In this document: piece after piece, positions 10,937 to 20,614 of the stretch | Numbering within the stretch: the stretch's first letter is position 1 | Layout of the letters: the number at the start of each line of letters is the position of its first letter | Source: a virus | Strand: one strand, 5' to 3' | Length of the DNA: 22,158 bases | Virus record (IMG/VR): IMGVR_UViG_3300025141_000862 | Span: 1 to 22,158 of that record | Position numbers and translations under genes: made by a program | Notes under the pieces: model-generated | What the model was told of the DNA's origin: nothing | The model's input: only the letters and a program-made list of their open reading frames with translations | Database searches by the model: none

Positions 10937-11488
10937 ATGGCTGGTAGTGATTTTTGGACGAGTGCCAATGTAGAACCAAAAAGAAAATATAGATTTTTAG
11001 TGCAATTCGCTGGGGGCGGATCTGATATTGGACAGATGTGGTTTGCAAAAACTGTTAAAAAGCCAGAAATTTCAGTAAACGCCCAAGAACATGCTTATCT
11101 TAACCACAAATTTTATTTTCCCGGCACGGTAGAATGGGCCTTGGTCACAATGACCTTGGTGGACCCAGTTTCCCCCGATGCCGCCCAACAGATGGCGCAG
11201 ATTTTAGACAGGTCTGGATATCCAGGCCCTAAAGAGTTGAATGATCCCAACCCGGAAACCATATCAAAGTTTAAATCTGTAGCTTCCTTGGGACAAGTTA
11301 AAATAACACAAATCGATTCAGAGGGAAATTCCATTGAGGAATGGACACTGAACAACGCTTTTATTACAAAGGTCGCTTATGGTGAGTTATCTTACGGTGA
11401 TGACGCTCTAACGGAGATCTCTTTAGATATCCGATACGATTGGGCCACACTGAATACTTCCACAGGCGCCCAATTCTGGCAGACATAA
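10937..11488 (+). CDS. gp19: Tail tube protein (T4 gp19-like)
   Basis: A 183-residue protein (T4 gp19 is 163). The start SDFWTSANVEPKRKYRFLVQ, then MWFAKTVKKPEISV, WALVTMTLVDP and the C-terminal LNNAFITKVAYGELSYGDD with DIRYDWATL are the hallmarks of the gp19 tube fold. Hexamer rings stack to form the tail lumen inside the sheath. It lies directly after the sheath as in T4 18-19. A caggaga Shine-Dalgarno precedes the ATG. A second, longer paralog is encoded at 12585. Confidence 0.92.
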   Translation: MAGSDFWTSANVEPKRKYRFLVQFAGGGSDIGQMWFAKTVKKPEISVNAQEHAYLNHKFYFPGTVEWALVTMTLVDPVSPDAAQQMAQILDRSGYPGPKELNDPNPETISKFKSVASLGQVKITQIDSEGNSIEEWTLNNAFITKVAYGELSYGDDALTEISLDIRYDWATLNTSTGAQFWQT

Positions 11489-11509
11489 TTTATACAATTG
11501 AGGTGATAT

Positions 11510-12364
11510 TTGTCTAGAAATAGCAAGAGAACGAATGCTGGGCTTGAGCCCACGCGCCCTGATGTGGCCGATCCAGCAATACAAAACGCAAGTCATAATT
11601 TAACCTTTTCAGCCCCAACAGAACATGTAGACCTTCCCTCCAGGGGGAGATACTATTCCGAGGGTCATCCTTTGCACAATAAGGATACTATTGAAATCAA
11701 ATATATGACAGCAAAAGAGGAAGACATTTTGACTTCCAGAAATCTTTTGAAAAAGGGCCTAGCAATTGAGAGGCTATTATCAAGCATTATTATTGATAAA
11801 ACAATTGATCCGGGCTCTCTCCTTATTGGAGATAGGAACGCCCTTATCGTTGCCGCAAGAATTACAGGATTTGGCGAGGAGTATGAAACAAAAGTACAAT
11901 GCCCCGCTTGTGCGGCAAATGTTGATCATACCTTTGATTTAACAAATGTATCTGTAAATTATGCGGAAGAGGTTCCCGAGGAAGTTCAGGCGACGGATGG
12001 GAATACTTTTATTGTTTCTCTTCCAATAATGAAAATTGATATTGAACTTAAATTATTGGAAGGTCACGATGAAAGGCGTATTATACAGCTACAAGAAAAC
12101 AAAAGAAAGAAGAAGTTGCCGGAAACTCCTCTCACCGACCAGCTAAGTGCCATTATCCAGTCCGTAAACGGAAGTGGAGACAGAAGCTCTATTAATTCTC
12201 TGGTTAATATGATGCCAGCTAAAGACACAAGATATCTTCGACGCCTTTATGATCGAGTTATCCCTAATGTCGATATGTCGCACAATTTTGAATGCACCGA
12301 ATGTGGGTATTTGACAGATTTGGAGGTTCCGTTTACGACGGACTTTTTTTGGCCTAAGCGATGA
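11510..12364 (+). CDS. Zinc-ribbon baseplate hub protein (T4 gp26-like)
   Basis: A 284-residue protein starting with TTG, supported by gaggtga 3-9 bases upstream. Family signatures: LPSRGRYYSEG (42-52), IEIKYMTAKEEDIL (61-74), a KKGLAIERLLSSII helix, and GDRNALIVAARITGFGEEY (107-125). Two CxxC pairs (C131-x-x-C134 and C262-x-x-C265) form a split zinc ribbon. T4 gp26 (208 residues) is a baseplate hub component needed for hub assembly. The C-terminus reads FTTDFFWPKR and its codons contain a T7 run (12344-12350); the +1 frame continues past the stop into a conserved-looking 57-residue sequence, suggesting a frameshifted longer product. In position (after the tube, before the tape measure) it matches the tape-measure chaperone genes of other phages. 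Confidence 0.75.
   Translation: MSRNSKRTNAGLEPTRPDVADPAIQNASHNLTFSAPTEHVDLPSRGRYYSEGHPLHNKDTIEIKYMTAKEEDILTSRNLLKKGLAIERLLSSIIIDKTIDPGSLLIGDRNALIVAARITGFGEEYETKVQCPACAANVDHTFDLTNVSVNYAEEVPEEVQATDGNTFIVSLPIMKIDIELKLLEGHDERRIIQLQENKRKKKLPETPLTDQLSAIIQSVNGSGDRSSINSLVNMMPAKDTRYLRRLYDRVIPNVDMSHNFECTECGYLTDLEVPFTTDFFWPKR
12344..12364 (+). other. Candidate programmed frameshift site
   Basis: A run of seven T (12344-12350) at the codons FF-W, four codons before the gp26-like TGA at 12362. In the +1 (equivalently -2) frame there is no stop from 12315 to 12536 and no ATG, GTG or TTG start before 12396. A -1 shift would meet TAA at 12355. A GGAGG at 12322-12326, 17 bases upstream of the run, could act as an internal ribosome-pausing site. 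Tail assembly chaperones use such shifts in lambda (-1), P2 (-1, T-run) and Mu (-2). Confidence 0.5.
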
Positions 12365-12398
12365 ATATATAAAGAACGTTTATGAAGAGTTCTTTTTG

Positions 12399-12536
12399 AT
12401 GAAATACCATGGCGGCTGGAGCTTCATTGAAGCATATAACCTGCCCATTCGCATTAGGCGGTGGTTTCTTGAGAGAATGGTTCAGCAAATAGAGAAAGAA
12501 GCTGAGCAAATGAATAAGTCCAACAAATCAATGTGA
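12399..12536 (+). CDS. Small chaperone-like protein or frameshift extension of the gp26-like gene
   Basis: A 45-residue reading frame from the first ATG (12399), with only a weak gaagag upstream. Coding character starts earlier: the frame reads DEYIKNVYEEFFL from 12360, before any start codon, then KYHGGWSFIEAYNLPIRIRR, WFLERMVQQIEKEAEQ and a polar tail. The aromatic/LP-x-x-x-RRWF helix pattern followed by a charged helix looks like a real small phage protein found next to gp26-type genes (possibly gp51-like), though I cannot confirm the family. The lack of a start upstream of the coding-like residues suggests translation mainly by frameshift from the gp26-like gene, giving a fused product of about 341 residues. 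A separate 45-residue product is the alternative. Confidence 0.6.
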   Translation: MKYHGGWSFIEAYNLPIRIRRWFLERMVQQIEKEAEQMNKSNKSM

Positions 12537-12584: not shown

Positions 12585-13313
12585 ATGCCAAATGGTTTTT
12601 GGACAGACGCTGAGTGGTCACCGAGATCAAAAAATAGATTTATTGTTGAACTGTATGCACCATATGCCGCCAATATCAATGGGTTGCATTGGTATGCAAA
12701 ATCTGTAACTCTTCCATCTTTCGAAATTGGGAAGGAAGAAATTAAAAATAACATCGGCGCCGCACAACGTCATGTCTTCGCTCGCAAAATGTCCTGGAAG
12801 CCAGTAACTCTGGTATTGGTAGATCCGATAGATCTCAAAACCCCCAACGATGCGAAGCGCAGCGATATCGGCCGCCCCGGCGTTGGATCGCTTGACCACG
12901 CCGCCGCCGGAATCACCGCCGCTTCGGCCGCCGCCGCCGCTGTAGCCACCGCCACCGCCACCACTAAAAAAAATATAGTTAATTCATTTATCTCTGCACT
13001 TAATCAGATCTTTAGAGGTGACAGCCGCATATATAAAGGCGCCACAAATGTAAGCAAGGAAAAGATGAACGCGGGGTTCAGATCTGTTATAATAAAATCT
13101 TTAAATAATTATGGACAAATAATTGATCAGTGGAAATTAAATAATATAATATTAACCGGAATGGATATGGGCACTCTTTCATATACAGACGACGCACCCT
13201 TTGAGTTAACTCTAACATTTGAATATGAGTGGGCTGACTATGAGCTAGATCCGGAAAATGAGTCGAATGAAAATAAAAAAGTTTTTACGGGAGAAAATAA
13301 TCCATGCGGATAA
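12585..13313 (+). CDS. Second tail-tube-like protein with Ala/Thr-rich insert
   Basis: A 242-residue paralog of the tube protein at 10937. Shared features: NGFWTDAEWSPRSKNRFIVE at the start, LHWYAKSVTLPSFEI, SWKPVTLVLVDPIDL, and LNNIILTGMDMGTLSYTDD with TFEYEWADY near the end. Between the tube strands, residues about 100-126 (HAAAGITAASAAAAAVATATA) form a low-complexity Ala/Thr linker absent from the first copy, encoded by a tract of about 74% GC (12841-12960) in an otherwise AT-rich region. A gaaggga/ggagat Shine-Dalgarno precedes the ATG. It may form a specialised ring at one tube end or near the baseplate; the role is inferred. The stop overlaps nothing if the next gene starts at 13330. 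Confidence 0.8.
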   Translation: MPNGFWTDAEWSPRSKNRFIVELYAPYAANINGLHWYAKSVTLPSFEIGKEEIKNNIGAAQRHVFARKMSWKPVTLVLVDPIDLKTPNDAKRSDIGRPGVGSLDHAAAGITAASAAAAAVATATATTKKNIVNSFISALNQIFRGDSRIYKGATNVSKEKMNAGFRSVIIKSLNNYGQIIDQWKLNNIILTGMDMGTLSYTDDAPFELTLTFEYEWADYELDPENESNENKKVFTGENNPCG

Positions 13314-13329
13314 TAGTAGGAGAAAACAG

Positions 13330-13659
13330 ATGCCAGCAGATGATTTAGTAAAAATAGAAATTGATTTAGAAGAACTTAAAAAGAATGAGCTAAACGAAAG
13401 TTTCCTCATGATGTTCGGAACAATCTTAAAGGGCGTCGTTAAAAGAATGTTTGACCTTCCAGCCATCGATGGATATATCAAGGGAAAACCAGAAGATGTT
13501 AAAGCATTCGCCAAGGCAATTGGCAATGAAAAGAAATATATTGAAGTTGCAAAGAAGCACGGGTTAAATGATCCTAAAACTTACAGACAAAAATCAGTAC
13601 TTCAAAAAGCGACAAAAGCGTTTGAAAAAGCAACAGGCATCAAGTGGCCGTTTAAGTAA
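13330..13659 (+). CDS. Small protein upstream of the tape measure, unknown function
   Basis: A 109-residue protein. I choose the ATG at 13330 because a perfect aggaga sits 6 bases upstream (13318-13323). The in-frame ATG at 13258 would overlap the previous gene by 56 bases and lacks a good ribosome site. The N-terminal half is acidic (KIEIDLEELKKNELNESF) and is followed by a hydrophobic helix FLMMFGTILKGVVKRMFDLP. The C-terminal half is basic and helical (RQKSVLQKATKAFEKATGI). No recognised family. Its place between a tube paralog and the tape measure suggests a tail assembly or tape-measure-associated role, by position only. Confidence 0.75.
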   Translation: MPADDLVKIEIDLEELKKNELNESFLMMFGTILKGVVKRMFDLPAIDGYIKGKPEDVKAFAKAIGNEKKYIEVAKKHGLNDPKTYRQKSVLQKATKAFEKATGIKWPFK

Positions 13660-13678: not shown

Positions 13679-15949
13679 ATGGCAGATCCCAGAAAACCAA
13701 CCTTAGCCCCCGGAACTCCCGATTCAGACGAGCTAAGGGAGTATACTGAACAATACAAGAAGTGGGCCGAGAGTGTCGAGGCCACGAAAGATGGTATTGA
13801 GGATTTGGGTGACGCCCAAGAAGAATTAGCCGCCAAAATAAAATATTTTAGGGAAATGCAGGCCGCCGGAAAACCCCTCAAGGACGCAGAACTGGACCAG
13901 CTAAAGGCGTACAGGAGAAGCCTCAGAGAAGTAAAAGATGCCCTAGATGAGTTAAACGAATCATATACAAGCGCTGGGTCACACGCGAAGGGTCTCGCTG
14001 GACAATTTAAAAATCTTCTTGGAATAACATCTGATTATAATAAGACGCTCTCTTCTCAAATATCAACGGTTATGAGTAGCAAAAAGGGCATGAAGAAGTT
14101 CTTCGAAGAAATGAAAAAGGGACAACCTGTCGCCAGTGCGATTCATAGTCTTTATGCCAAAGTCCAGGAATCAACCTTGCAGTTAATTGTAGCCCAGGAC
14201 TCCGCCCTCGTATCTTTTAATAGGGCGACTGGCGCTGGAAGAAAATACAGCGACGAAATAGTTCAGTTGGAGCAAAGTATGTATCACGCGGGGATTACTA
14301 TAGAAGATTCCGCTGCGTCTTTTCAAGCGCTTCAACAAAATTTTTATGGCCTTAGAAATACATCGGAATCAACAAGAGGAGACATGACAAAAACAGTTGC
14401 AATCTTGGGCGAGATGGGTGTCAACATGGAGACATCAGCCAAGAATATACAAATTATGACAGCAGCTTTGGGATTCAGCAGAAAAGAAGCCGCCGCAACC
14501 CAAAGAGAGCTATTTGCTTTAGCACAAACCATAGATATGCCTCCCGATCAAATGGCCCAAGCGTTTGGCGAAGCGATGCCCAAACTGGCAGCGTTTGGAA
14601 GGGAAAGCACGGAGGTTTTCAAAAAGCTCCAAGTCAATGCTCGTGCAGCAGGAATGGAAGTTTCACAAATATTGAGTGTCGTCGAACAATTTGATAAATT
14701 TGACACAGCAGCAGCAGCCGTGGGAAGACTAAACGCTCTTCTTGGTGGCCCATTTTTAAATTCTCTTGAAATGGTTACGGTGACAGACCCAACCGAAAGA
14801 ATGAGAATGCTTTCTGAGGCCGTTGCCAATGCCGGCCAGTCTTTTGACACGATGACCCATTATCAACGAAAGGCCATCGCGAGTGCAATGGGACTTCAAG
14901 ATGTAAATCAACTGGCGCTTGTCATGAAGGGGCGATTTAAATTAGCTGGTGTAGGCGTTCAAAAATCGGCAGCAGAGATTGAAAAGCTGGCCGAACAAAC
15001 TCAAGAGTTTAATACAATAGCAGAAGAGTTTACCGAAGTAATTCGCATGTTTGCAGTACAGATGGCTCCATTGATTGATATTTTGAAAGATTTCATCAAC
15101 GGCATCACTTGGCTAAACAAAACTGCTCCGGGTTTGATTAAGCATTTTCCCTTTCTTATACTGGGCCTTAAGGGAGTATCAATGGCGATGAAGATGGTCA
15201 ATCTTGAAACGAAGAAAATGGGCGGCTTCGGCGGCTTTGTGGGCCTCGCCCTTTTATTGTGGTATATTATTGCAATCACCGACTGGAGCCCTGGACTGAA
15301 AGCGGTTCTCATCTCGGTCGCCACCGCGTTAACGCTTGTCTCCGTTGCTATATGGCTGGTAAATAGTAGTCTCGTGGCCTTTAATGTATTGACAGGAGGA
15401 ATAGTACCACTCTTAGGTTTACTATTTTCCGCCCTCGCCGGCGTGGCATATTTCATCTATCACAGTGCCGGTTCCCCTTCTTTTATCGCCATGATAGGGT
15501 TACTTGGTATGGCATTGGTCGCACTGGTTCCGGCATTAATTCCAGTAGCCATCGCTATCGCTGGTATTGCAGGATCTATTTGGCTATTGTCGCAAGCATG
15601 GCACGCGTTCATGGATGACGGTGATAAGTCTGTCGGTGTGGATGCAAAGATTAATAGAACTGAGACGACCACATCTAAGAAGATTGAAGCGAAATCAAAA
15701 TCTCAAAAATCAGGCGCGATGACAGAAGAAAGGATAGACAAGGCCAATGAGAGTTCTATTGCGGCTCAGAAAAACGCAGCGGCAATGAAGAAAGAAACAC
15801 TGGATGTTAATTTGAAACTAGAATTGGATAATACCGAGAACGTTAAGATGGCTATCAAGGCCGCACAAGCTGTAGTTGCCCGAGATGGTGAATTAAAGAA
15901 AATAAATGTAAATGTTATTGCAAACAATGTAAGGGCTGGAGTCGTCTAA
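13679..15949 (+). CDS. Tail tape measure protein
   Basis: A 756-residue protein. Residues 20-95 form a charged coiled coil (AAKIKYFREMQ, LDQLKAYRRSLREVKDALDE). Residues 100-470 are mainly helical. Residues about 515-645 contain several very hydrophobic segments (GFVGLALLLWYIIAITDW, LISVATALTLVSVAIWLV, LLGLLFSALAGVAYFIY, ALVPALIPVAIAIAGIAG). The C-terminus is basic and Ala-rich with a KIEAKSKSQKSG stretch. Long helical body plus a hydrophobic patch is the usual tape measure architecture: it sets tail length, fills the tube, and may help DNA pass the host membrane. A gaggagtga Shine-Dalgarno precedes the ATG at 13679. If one residue spans about 0.15 nm, the tail would be about 110 nm. Confidence 0.88.
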   Translation: MADPRKPTLAPGTPDSDELREYTEQYKKWAESVEATKDGIEDLGDAQEELAAKIKYFREMQAAGKPLKDAELDQLKAYRRSLREVKDALDELNESYTSAGSHAKGLAGQFKNLLGITSDYNKTLSSQISTVMSSKKGMKKFFEEMKKGQPVASAIHSLYAKVQESTLQLIVAQDSALVSFNRATGAGRKYSDEIVQLEQSMYHAGITIEDSAASFQALQQNFYGLRNTSESTRGDMTKTVAILGEMGVNMETSAKNIQIMTAALGFSRKEAAATQRELFALAQTIDMPPDQMAQAFGEAMPKLAAFGRESTEVFKKLQVNARAAGMEVSQILSVVEQFDKFDTAAAAVGRLNALLGGPFLNSLEMVTVTDPTERMRMLSEAVANAGQSFDTMTHYQRKAIASAMGLQDVNQLALVMKGRFKLAGVGVQKSAAEIEKLAEQTQEFNTIAEEFTEVIRMFAVQMAPLIDILKDFINGITWLNKTAPGLIKHFPFLILGLKGVSMAMKMVNLETKKMGGFGGFVGLALLLWYIIAITDWSPGLKAVLISVATALTLVSVAIWLVNSSLVAFNVLTGGIVPLLGLLFSALAGVAYFIYHSAGSPSFIAMIGLLGMALVALVPALIPVAIAIAGIAGSIWLLSQAWHAFMDDGDKSVGVDAKINRTETTTSKKIEAKSKSQKSGAMTEERIDKANESSIAAQKNAAAMKKETLDVNLKLELDNTENVKMAIKAAQAVVARDGELKKINVNVIANNVRAGVV

Positions 15950-17182: not shown

Positions 17183-20100
17183 ATGAGTGAAAAAGTAGCC
17201 ATTGAGGTCCTGTCCGAAAAGCCCTATGCAACGCCCACCTCAGAAAGATTATTGAAAATGGTTAAAGAGACCCCTCAGCCTGAGAATAATATATATTTTA
17301 GAAATGTGGGAAAGCGGGGCCCCCGCCCACCCGACCTTGAAAATAGTAAAGTTCGAAAAGCGTGGGAGGAAAATTCTTCTGTCACCTGGACAATGTGGTT
17401 TGGCATCACGGGGTGGTGGGGCGACTTGAGAAAAACCGGCACCTATAGTAGTGAGGGGGGCGGTGAGGCGGCCTGGAAAGAGGGCGACAGTTTTTTCTTT
17501 GATTCATATAAATATATTTCTGATTTACAATCCCGCGTAGAAAGTACACAAGCGGACTTATTAAAAATATTAACAGAGTCTATCGAAGATTGGGGCCTCA
17601 AACTAAAAAAACACATAATAGCTTACAATGTAAACCTCATTAAAAACTCGCCTGTCACGGATGATGAACTATTACAACTTCATGAGGATTTTTCTGCTTC
17701 AGACCTCGATTTAAGGGGGATTTTAAACGACGACGACGAGTATACAGCTTATCTTCAAAAACGATTTGAAAGACCGTTTGTAAGAGAAGTAAGTGAACAA
17801 ATTACTAAGACATTCGGCCAGTCAAACCCGCCCAAACACCCGCGATCGATCAATAGTGCCATAGATGGGATCTGGCAAGATAAATATCTTAGAATGACCG
17901 AAAGGGAAAAGGCACTTGTTATTCTCATCAGAAGAGAAATAAAGATCGCAGAACTAGCCGAGGCCGTCGCGCAGGATAAAGAATTGAAAGAACTCGCAAA
18001 AGAAGATCCCTTTTTTAACAGTAACAGAGAAGCATTTCTTCGAGACCATATAAGATCTGCAATAGAACTTGATCCTGATGTTTTGGATGAGGATCTTCGT
18101 AAAATTGCAGCCGATGAGGCTAAAAAAGAATTAAAATTTACTCCTCAATGTTTTCTGCTTTATCACATGAAAGTGCTTCGAAAATTAAATAGGTTGCGCA
18201 CGAAGGGCCTGGGAGTCCCATATGAGAAAACATTTATTCTCGATACGGAGGAAGGTCATAGCATTATGAATCGTCTTACAAAAATGTCGGATCCTTCTGA
18301 GATGTTAGATTTACCAACGTGGGAAATGGCGAAGCTTGTACCAAATTTGCGTCTTTATAAAATATTATATGAAAAAGACTCTCAGCAAATAGTGGATGAA
18401 GTTGAATTTAAGTTTCCAAATTTTACTTATGTTAAAAATAATCCAAATAAATTATTGGAAGCAACTGAAAGTTCCTTAGTTAAAACCAAACAAGAATATG
18501 GAATAAAATCTTTTGATTGGAAATATATTGGCACTGATCCTTTCACTTACAAAAATGATGTGGAGGCAACATTGGTGTTGTATCTTCAAGATTTTGAACA
18601 ATTAAAAATAAAACGAACTTCCAAGGGTCACGAATATCGTCTTTTAGACCTTCTTGTGCCATCAGGCCCCCCTACTGCGAAAATGACAACTCCAGGCACA
18701 ACAACTGCCATCGCTCGACCCAGCCATCAGGGGGGATCCGGAAAGTCAGCATCGGCGCACAAACGATTACAAGCAACGAAAAATAAAGTAGAGTTAGCTA
18801 AAACGTTTACTATAAAAGATAAATATTATTATGATATTAAGGCCCAAGTAGGGTGGGCCAACAAAGAAGATACCAAGAAAAATCTTTTTTTAACAATGGT
18901 CGACTATGATATTCAGTTTAGCCAAGAAGGGGTTTTCGAACTTACTATTAATTACCGTGCAAGACTTGAAGGAACCCTTTACGATAAAAGAGCAAATGTT
19001 CTACGGGGATCCCCGTCTTTTGAAAAAGGTATGATCAGTCGCAGTAATCAGATTAAGCGTATGAGAGAACAGGGCGCCGATAATAAAAGAATTGCAAAGC
19101 TAACAGATGAGATGAGTGAACTAAGGAGGGCGAACAAAGAAAAGGTTTTTAGTGAATTTATGTTAAAATTAAAACGTCATAATTCTATTTATTTTGAGGA
19201 TTTTACGACGGCTGAAATTTTATCATTTCAGTCCGGAGGGAGATCATCCATCGTACAAGGCGGCCGCGTCGGGAGACAATATAAACCAGGAGGCCCAAAA
19301 TCTGCCGACTTTGACATTTTCATGGATGCGATAAAACCCTATAAGAAACCACCGGACCCCGAGGATGGAACGGAAGCGGAGGAAAAGTGGAGGCCATTTT
19401 TAAAAAAAATCAACCAAACCGCCGGGAAGCCTGATGAATATCGGATTCATTATTTTTTCTTGGGAGATCTTATAGAGTTAATGGCCCAAAATGCAATCAG
19501 AAAAGACAATTTTGACAATTCTACTTTTGTTGATCAGACAAGCTTACTATTATCTGGTTTTGAGCTTTTAAACCCTCAAAAATTAGGAGAACGGTTAAAT
19601 CCAAGACTTACTGCTGCCGATATTCCAATTAGTGTTGAAACATTTAATAGATTCTTTTTTGAAAAAGTTATCTCATATGACGTTACCGTGTATCCTCTTA
19701 TGAAAATGATAAGGGATATCATGTCTCATTTGGTTATAAATATATTTGACGATTGTTTTGGGAAAATAAATATACGAAATTCATTTAGGCTAGGATTCTT
19801 TTCTTTAGACCCCAAAGAAGGGCAAAATCCGATGGAAGTAATTGCGAAGGATCAGAGACTTGCTTTTTTAAAAAAGCAGATCACTGCAACAGGGGTCCCG
19901 AGTGCAACACAAGAAAATCATCTACATTATAGAATTATAAATATGGATAAAAAAGCAGAAACAGATCCAACCGGAACATATGGTTTATCCAAAAAGGAAA
20001 AAACCAAAGACGCATATCATTTTTTTATTGTTTATGGTGAAGCCGCCGATCCGGCCAGTCTTCGACTCAAAATCATAGACGGAAAACCGGATTATAAAGA

Positions 20101-20614
20101 AACATACAAGAGGGATTTGGATGCTGGCATATATCATTTATATTTGGGGAGAGATAGAGGGTTAGTAAAGAATATTTCTTTTGCAAAGACCGATCAGGAA
20201 TATTTAAGAGAGCAAAGATTTACACAAGAGTCCGAAGTCAACCCTTATGCGATTTTATCCAACGTTTTTGATGTCACTATCCAGATGTACGGAAATACTT
20301 TGTTTTATCCAGGTCAGAGAGTATTTATTTATCCGAGCGGGGGCTTTACAAGCCTCGGAAGGCCCTGGATCGAGGGTTCTAATGCCAACACTCTTGGCCT
20401 GGGAGGATATCATATAGTGACAGAGGTTTCTTCAAAAATAGAAAGTGGAAAATTTGAAACAACACTTAAGGCACGCTGGGAAACTTCGGGCGATGGGATT
20501 TCACAAGATCCGTCCGTGAATCAGAGTCGAGGAACAGGAACTGTAGATGCATCTAGAGTCGCCGGAAGCGGAAATCCGCTGTACTCTCCGCAACCTGTAG
20601 AACCGGCAACATAA
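17183..20614 (+). CDS. Large baseplate hub-type structural protein
   Basis: A 1143-residue protein, the largest in the window, starting 3 bases after the LysM gene. The N-terminal 100 residues include a Trp-rich stretch (WTMWFGITGWWGDL). Residues 100-400 are charged and helical. Around 540-615 is a strand region, FLTMVDYDIQFSQEGVFELT followed by INYRARLEGTLYDKRANVL, of the kind seen in gp27-like hub proteins. A coiled coil follows (IKRMREQGADNKRIAKLTDE). The last 130 residues hold NPYAILSNVFDVTIQMYGN, TLFYPGQRVFIYP and GLGGYHIVTEVSSKIESGKF with ETTLKARWE, a closing beta domain typical of hub/spike-associated proteins. I infer a hub role; no lysozyme or peptidase active site is visible. The role of the N-terminal half is unknown. 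Confidence 0.55.
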   Translation: MSEKVAIEVLSEKPYATPTSERLLKMVKETPQPENNIYFRNVGKRGPRPPDLENSKVRKAWEENSSVTWTMWFGITGWWGDLRKTGTYSSEGGGEAAWKEGDSFFFDSYKYISDLQSRVESTQADLLKILTESIEDWGLKLKKHIIAYNVNLIKNSPVTDDELLQLHEDFSASDLDLRGILNDDDEYTAYLQKRFERPFVREVSEQITKTFGQSNPPKHPRSINSAIDGIWQDKYLRMTEREKALVILIRREIKIAELAEAVAQDKELKELAKEDPFFNSNREAFLRDHIRSAIELDPDVLDEDLRKIAADEAKKELKFTPQCFLLYHMKVLRKLNRLRTKGLGVPYEKTFILDTEEGHSIMNRLTKMSDPSEMLDLPTWEMAKLVPNLRLYKILYEKDSQQIVDEVEFKFPNFTYVKNNPNKLLEATESSLVKTKQEYGIKSFDWKYIGTDPFTYKNDVEATLVLYLQDFEQLKIKRTSKGHEYRLLDLLVPSGPPTAKMTTPGTTTAIARPSHQGGSGKSASAHKRLQATKNKVELAKTFTIKDKYYYDIKAQVGWANKEDTKKNLFLTMVDYDIQFSQEGVFELTINYRARLEGTLYDKRANVLRGSPSFEKGMISRSNQIKRMREQGADNKRIAKLTDEMSELRRANKEKVFSEFMLKLKRHNSIYFEDFTTAEILSFQSGGRSSIVQGGRVGRQYKPGGPKSADFDIFMDAIKPYKKPPDPEDGTEAEEKWRPFLKKINQTAGKPDEYRIHYFFLGDLIELMAQNAIRKDNFDNSTFVDQTSLLLSGFELLNPQKLGERLNPRLTAADIPISVETFNRFFFEKVISYDVTVYPLMKMIRDIMSHLVINIFDDCFGKINIRNSFRLGFFSLDPKEGQNPMEVIAKDQRLAFLKKQITATGVPSATQENHLHYRIINMDKKAETDPTGTYGLSKKEKTKDAYHFFIVYGEAADPASLRLKIIDGKPDYKETYKRDLDAGIYHLYLGRDRGLVKNISFAKTDQEYLREQRFTQESEVNPYAILSNVFDVTIQMYGNTLFYPGQRVFIYPSGGFTSLGRPWIEGSNANTLGLGGYHIVTEVSSKIESGKFETTLKARWETSGDGISQDPSVNQSRGTGTVDASRVAGSGNPLYSPQPVEPAT

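Follow-up and report, generated by a model that had tools for sequence, protein, structure and literature searches.

A probable programmed +1 frameshift in the T4 gp26-like tail-assembly chaperone genes of environmental and isolated myophages

In phage lambda the tail-assembly chaperones gpG and gpGT are two products with a single start, encoded near the tape measure gene; a ribosomal shift a few codons before the stop adds to the longer product a small second domain that has no start of its own. This G-T shift is conserved widely, though not in T4, and the T4-type phages were long described as the exception to the tail-chaperone frameshifting rule; tailed phages use shifts of -1, -2 or +1 (PMC5009743). 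T4 has two separate genes of the PF12322 family, those of gp26 and gp51, and in gp51 a gp26-like protein and a C-terminal domain are fused in frame. The title of Vladimirov, Gautam and Davidson (2022, Virology 566:9) ascribes a different mechanism to T4-like phages, and in PMC12846349 Vladimirov et al. 2022 is given as the source for poly-T -1 signals in the TAC-N genes of these phages. A preliminary description of the DNA studied here knew of no shift established for T4-type gp26; on the account given in PMC12846349 this needs qualification for the -1 direction. For the +1 direction, our literature search, with most subscription papers outside its coverage, brought up no case in the gp26 family.

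A UUU codon followed by a pyrimidine (UUU-Y) is reportedly a +1 error-prone context in E. coli, as Fu and Parker in 1994 and Schwartz and Curran in 1997 are said to have found. At such sites (argI; Curran), as at the prfB site CUU UGA C, the tRNA in the P site moves onto a U-rich codon that overlaps the first. In the prfB context, with the slip codon ahead of a stop, CUU is followed in slipperiness by a group of codons that includes UUU (PMC10885494); PMC5009743 cites Fu and Parker 1994. Among phages, +1 shifts in tail-assembly chaperone genes are described for Halorubrum virus HSTV-2 and for actinophages (PMC5009743, PMC10885494), at sites that are different from UUU-Y or only predicted, and the comparison with gp26 is one of shift and function. 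The Listeria phages PSA and A118 extend structural proteins at the C-terminus by +1 shifting at CCC UGA (PMC5009743), but the genes are those of the tail shaft and capsid, the slip codon is a proline codon, and a pseudoknot or stop is involved.

The window, that is, the whole stretch of 22,158 nucleotides analyzed here (IMG/VR virus record IMGVR_UViG_3300025141_000862), comes from a contractile-tailed phage. Its gene order is capsid (phrog_138), sheath, tube, gp26-like gene, small frame, second tube-like gene, putative tape measure and baseplate-like genes, and includes the following:

Sheath gene, 945 aa, phrog_23
10937..11488, + strand, tail tube gene upstream of the chaperone pair, phrog_4542
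11500..11503, + strand, Shine-Dalgarno core GAGG of the gp26-like gene
11510..12364, + strand, gp26-like gene with TTG start at 11510, 284 aa, putative short tail-assembly chaperone (TAC-N), PF12322, phrog_150
12585..13313, + strand, second tube-like gene downstream of the pair, phrog_4542 and phrog_45
13679..15949, + strand, putative tape measure gene, 756 aa, with a sub-threshold match to PF20155 only

The gp26-like protein matches PF12322 (T4_baseplate) with 52.6 bits, against a curated cut-off of 24.5 (E 6.6e-14), and phrog_150 ('baseplate hub'), and by these matches is assigned to the T4 gp26/gp51 family. The chaperone pair is situated between the tube and the putative tape measure gene, as the preliminary description had it, but does not directly adjoin the latter, because the second tube-like gene and one small ORF intervene. 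In this, and in having a gp26/PF12322 protein as its N part, the locus differs from lambda. The second tube-like gene carries a low-complexity Ala/Thr insert (AAAGITAASAAAAAVATATATT).

The gp26-like ORF ends ...ACG GAC TTT TTT TGG CCT AAG CGA TGA, and its end is overlapped by a second open frame:

12315..12536, + strand, open +1 frame overlapping the end of the gp26-like gene
12344-12350, + strand, run of seven Ts (T7)
12344..12355, + strand, putative shift site TTT TTT TGG CCT in frame 0, with UUU-U at 12344 and again at 12347; read as F F G L after a +1 shift
12351..12536, + strand, +1 frame after the presumed shift, predicted C-terminal domain GLSDEYIKNVYEEFF..., 61 aa, three helices, stop TGA at 12534-12536
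12362..12364, + strand, stop TGA of frame 0; in all relatives, too, the stop follows shortly after the site
12399..12401, + strand, first in-frame ATG of the small frame, with no Shine-Dalgarno core upstream and not conserved

After the T run the +1 frame reads F-G-L-S-D-E-Y-I-K-N-V-Y-E-E-F-F-L-M-K-Y-H-G-G-W-S-F-I-E-A-Y-N-L-P-I-R-I-R-R-W-F and onward. The earliest ATG, GTG or TTG in this frame is the TTG at 12396, followed by the ATG at 12399, and the -1 frame stops at once (F-L-A-stop). The preliminary description had reported a T7 run in the last codons of the gp26-like gene, a +1/-2 frame open from 12315 to 12536 with no start codon before 12396, and an immediate stop after a -1 shift; the sequence confirms each of them.

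We consider it highly probable, from the comparative data below, that a programmed +1 ribosomal frameshift at this site yields a short and a long tail-assembly chaperone (TAC-N and TAC-NC) in the manner of G and GT. Most ribosomes would terminate at 12362 and release the 284-aa short chaperone. In a minority, the P-site tRNA-Phe would slide one base forward on UUU-U, from UUU onto the overlapping UUU or UUC, leaving the next codon unread; the slip would usually occur at the second UUU (or else the first), and slow decoding of the next codon, mostly UGG, would help it. The shifted ribosomes would go on to read GGC CTA AGC GAT GAA... and produce a 341-aa protein (...TDFFGLSDEYIKNV...), presumably at a rate that is useful to the phage. 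The locus is thus probably a +1 variant of the lambda G/GT-type shift within the T4-type (gp26-like) chaperone family, using UUU-Y where lambda uses a -1 heptamer. The short and long forms may act jointly, as gpG and gpGT do in lambda; by that analogy (PMC5009743), coating of the tape measure protein would fall to the N part, and recruitment of tube subunits to the helical C-terminal domain.

IMG/VR was scanned twice, with the gp26-like protein and then with the small frame, which gave 160 loci. The small frame had the +1 offset in all 138 loci in which both parts were matched, and in 106 of the 108 scorable non-redundant loci of the window type. Loci fetched with the gp26-like protein only were counted apart, which avoids bias from selection by the small frame: of 65 non-redundant loci 61 were +1, two were -1 and two were cut by the contig end, so that 61 of 63 scorable loci were +1. 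Further scans with the gp26-like genes of isolates as queries yielded Flavobacterium-phage-like, huge-phage, Listeria-phage LIS04, cyanophage and small own-start groups, and the Flavobacterium-phage-like group had the +1 offset in all 40 scorable non-redundant loci. Isolates with the +1 arrangement include Microcystis phage Mel-JY01, Flavobacterium phage immuto, Rhodothermus phage RM378, Streptococcus phage SagM-GXN1, Listeria phage LIS04 and Streptomyces phage pSt2308. A scan of bacterial genomes with gp26 returned only phage-like contigs, mostly in Bacteroidota MAGs, likewise with +1 sites. The comparison of related phages that the preliminary description had proposed, for the T run, the frame offset and the absence of a start, was therefore positive, in about 200 non-redundant loci, except that the T run itself is broken in relatives and that what persists is the UUU-Y.

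An in-frame UUU followed by a pyrimidine is found at the site in all 158 non-redundant +1 loci and isolates. Nearly all sites of the window clade read TTT TTT TGG CCT; the variants are TTT CTT TGG, TTT CTA TGG, TTC TTT TGG, TTT TTT TAC and TTT TTT TTT CCT, and sites outside this clade include TTC TTT CGT, TTT CTA TTC, TTT TTT followed by AGT, CAC or CGT, and CTG TTT CGC. Because TTC TTT TGG, TTT CTT TGG, TTT CTA TGG and TTT TTT TGG all occur, the essential feature appears to be the UUU codon with its pyrimidine rather than the T run. A stricter definition, with the slip at YUU UGG, was tried and widened to UUU-Y in view of the TTT CTA TGG sites. The two Phe codons of the site are TTT in 99 of 101 and 103 of 108 cases, far more often than elsewhere in the genes, where the ratio is 621:200 (p values of about 1e-9 and 1e-7, which ignore shared ancestry). 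The strict conservation of TTTTTTTGGCCT may be due in part to coding in two frames (W-P in frame 0 and G-L in +1) as well as to slipperiness; the TTT bias and the swaps between TTT CTT and TTC TTT favor slipperiness, although the two are not fully separable.

Alternatively, the small frame might be an independent gene, translated from the ATG at 12399 or a nearer non-AUG codon by re-initiation or coupling after the gp26-like stop. That ATG could give some separate product, and 79 of 151 loci have an ATG, GTG or TTG within 18 codons of the site. However, 72 of the 151 have none within this distance and three have none in the whole frame. Only 7 of the 79 early candidate starts are preceded by a Shine-Dalgarno core, compared with 19 of 20 other gene starts tested in the window (the sole exception, at 13258, is probably mis-called), and the ATG at 12399 is unlikely to be the main start since it lacks such a core and is not conserved. 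The 12 codons just past the site, before the usual first start, were compared in 72 locus pairs, each used once; the +1 frame gave a dN/dS of 0.14 (95% 0.11-0.18), and the two remaining frames gave 2.2 and 1.2. The +1 frame is under strong purifying selection ahead of any usual start codon, which bears out the earlier remark that it reads as protein before the ATG. Relatives in which the second domain does have its own ATG were found, as natural split genes: L192 and L196, which have lost UUU-Y, and likewise L166, L364 and L365. In these own-start relatives the small frame sits in another frame, not +1. Homologs with a clear start of their own had been named in advance as evidence that would count against a frameshift; since the shift site is lost in L192, L196 and L166, we regard these as controls rather than refutations, and we judge an independent gene to be unlikely in the window. 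Programmed frameshifting from the gp26-like gene into the small frame, as first suggested, is supported by the offset, the site, the missing starts and dN/dS.

Loss of the site is also accompanied by a change of frame. In L046 and L049, TTC TTC replaces UUU and the second domain lies in the -1 frame, with a canonical -1 heptamer, A AAU UUC, in phase at the site; L046 has no start codon before the domain core and L049 only a GTG at +47. The stretch concerned is L046:3400-3700 in the first and lies around the gp26 stop in L049. In a quick tree with long branches, L046 and L049 nest within the +1 clade and L192 and L196 within the Flavobacterium-like +1 group, and five changes among +1, -1 and own-start are required. 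UUU-Y is lost in these relatives, which have a changed frame or start, and this supports the frameshift reading.

The cyanophage gp26 genes, 33 of them non-redundant, all have an in-phase T TTT TTC and a -1 frame, as do those of the jumbo phages RaK2, BF, PA5oct, Vibrio 2.275, Hallingskeid, Phosso and Atu_ph07. It is likely that these cyanophage and jumbo genes use -1 programmed shifts, at U UUU UUC, unlike the +1 of the window. In some of them an ATG is found close to the stop as well, and a separate start is possible there. Within this set (L169, L170, L171, L172, L173-L175, L177, L179 and L180, with T TTT TTC or T TTT TTT) the -1 frame enters a small domain of the 'baseplate hub assembly catalyst' type that is annotated separately or missed. 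T4 gp26 also terminates at this FF. We count the -1 arrangement of the cyanophage and jumbo genes and the in-frame fusion in T4 gp51 in favor of the frameshift reading.

A -2 slip on the T7 run, giving FFFGLSDEY, seems quite unlikely to us. It would lead into a frame identical to that of +1, tRNA-Phe could re-pair two bases back on T7, and Mu uses such a slip in the same gene pair (PMC5009743). However, 41 of the 158 sites (TTC TTT TGG, TTT CTT TGG, TTT CTA TGG, TTC TTT CGT and others) do not permit re-pairing with a Phe codon two bases back, whereas all permit it one base forward, which argues for +1. Of the +1/-2 shift originally proposed, the frame offset is retained and the -2 option is given up.

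RNA polymerase slippage on the T7 homopolymer, producing a mixed mRNA population, is very unlikely: seven Ts are short for efficient slippage, and many relatives with the arrangement intact have a run broken to T3-T4 (L118, L037, L039, L181 and the immuto group). Transcriptional slippage is nevertheless a known route to products of this kind (PMC5009743). An assembly error or decayed gene, conceivable as a homopolymer indel in a single contig, has a negligible chance and is refuted by the comparative data, with the arrangement recurring in over 150 non-redundant loci as well as in genomes of isolates, and the shifted frame under purifying selection.

A search for a classical stimulator was negative, which counts against a programmed shift; such elements are common at +1 shifts but not a requirement. 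In contrast to prfB and argI, no Shine-Dalgarno sequence was found at a prfB-like distance from the shift site, no stop codon occupies the A site, and the A-site codon is usually UGG. The preliminary description had noted a GGAGG 17 bases upstream of the T run. It is there, at 12322-12326 (+ strand), but it encodes part of a conserved [L/M]-E-V peptide, is kept only where that peptide is, and occurs at -23 from UGG in only 64 of 151 sites; for these reasons it is probably not part of the shift signal. As a Shine-Dalgarno-like stimulator it was rejected, being explained by the peptide and absent from most of the family. A search for strong downstream RNA structure was likewise negative, with mean folding z of -0.3 to -0.8 and similar values upstream. 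With no Shine-Dalgarno sequence or strong fold, either the site suffices for a low yield of the G/GT type or a nascent-peptide or other signal has been missed.

The N and C parts were folded apart, with input rows from the window and IMG/VR only. The model of the N part (pLDDT 88.8) had as its highest-probability Foldseek match the HK97 tail assembly chaperone 2ob9, a weak match that is not significant (E 0.97, probability 0.41, TM by target 0.50), and a PDB sequence search found no relative. The C part was modeled as a three-helix domain (pLDDT 92), and a fold search with this small domain gave nothing useful. DUF6760 (PF20546) matched the C-domain with 22 bits, below its curated cut-off of 27 (E 1.7e-4), and 8 of 25 C-domain homologs at E<0.01; the domain was therefore not assigned to this family, on which our literature search found no paper. 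The profile-profile comparison with the C-terminus of cyanophage and T4 gp51 (phrog_634) aligned the whole domain (E 7e-5, probability only 63%) and is suggestive of homology with the gp51 C-terminal domain. Taken together, the gene position, the protein family and the shift suggest tail-assembly chaperones. The small frame had been called chaperone-like in the preliminary description; it is better seen as the C-terminal domain of the long form, and so as part of a chaperone, than as a separate one.

If this is correct, a conserved +1 site returns much of the gp26 family to the frameshifting rule, and does so across environmental myophages and isolates that infect Flavobacterium, Microcystis, Rhodothermus, Streptococcus, Listeria and Streptomyces. 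On balance we lean slightly towards a broader view, that the gp26 chaperone family needs only a short and a long form from one gene. The Phe-Phe position before the stop would then be used for +1 (UUU-Y, apparently stimulator-free) or for -1 (U UUU UUC or A AAU UUC), or be replaced by an own start, with switches within a single clade, and UUU-Y/UGG would be a minimal, stimulator-free +1 site widespread in marine and other myophages. Switching of direction is visible here in nature, and the +1 site is a simple one for study. In deposited annotations the C-domain is truncated or given as a separate hypothetical protein, as in immuto (L163:3333-3443) and Mel-JY01 (L162:4776-5012). Annotations in which it is a separate hypothetical gene, truncated or missed would change.

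Several other features of the window were observed. In the baseplate region, 17183-20614 encodes a 1143-aa protein with no Pfam or PHROG match. The adjacent ORFs 3-497 and 511-1023 are clearly similar and form a tandem duplicate, probably of fiber or decoration proteins, the second having no PHROG match. The ORF called as 13258-13659, the longest version, begins within the preceding gene and has no Shine-Dalgarno sequence; the likelier start is an ATG near 13330 with AGGAG ahead of it, and the overlap is then an artefact of ORF calling.
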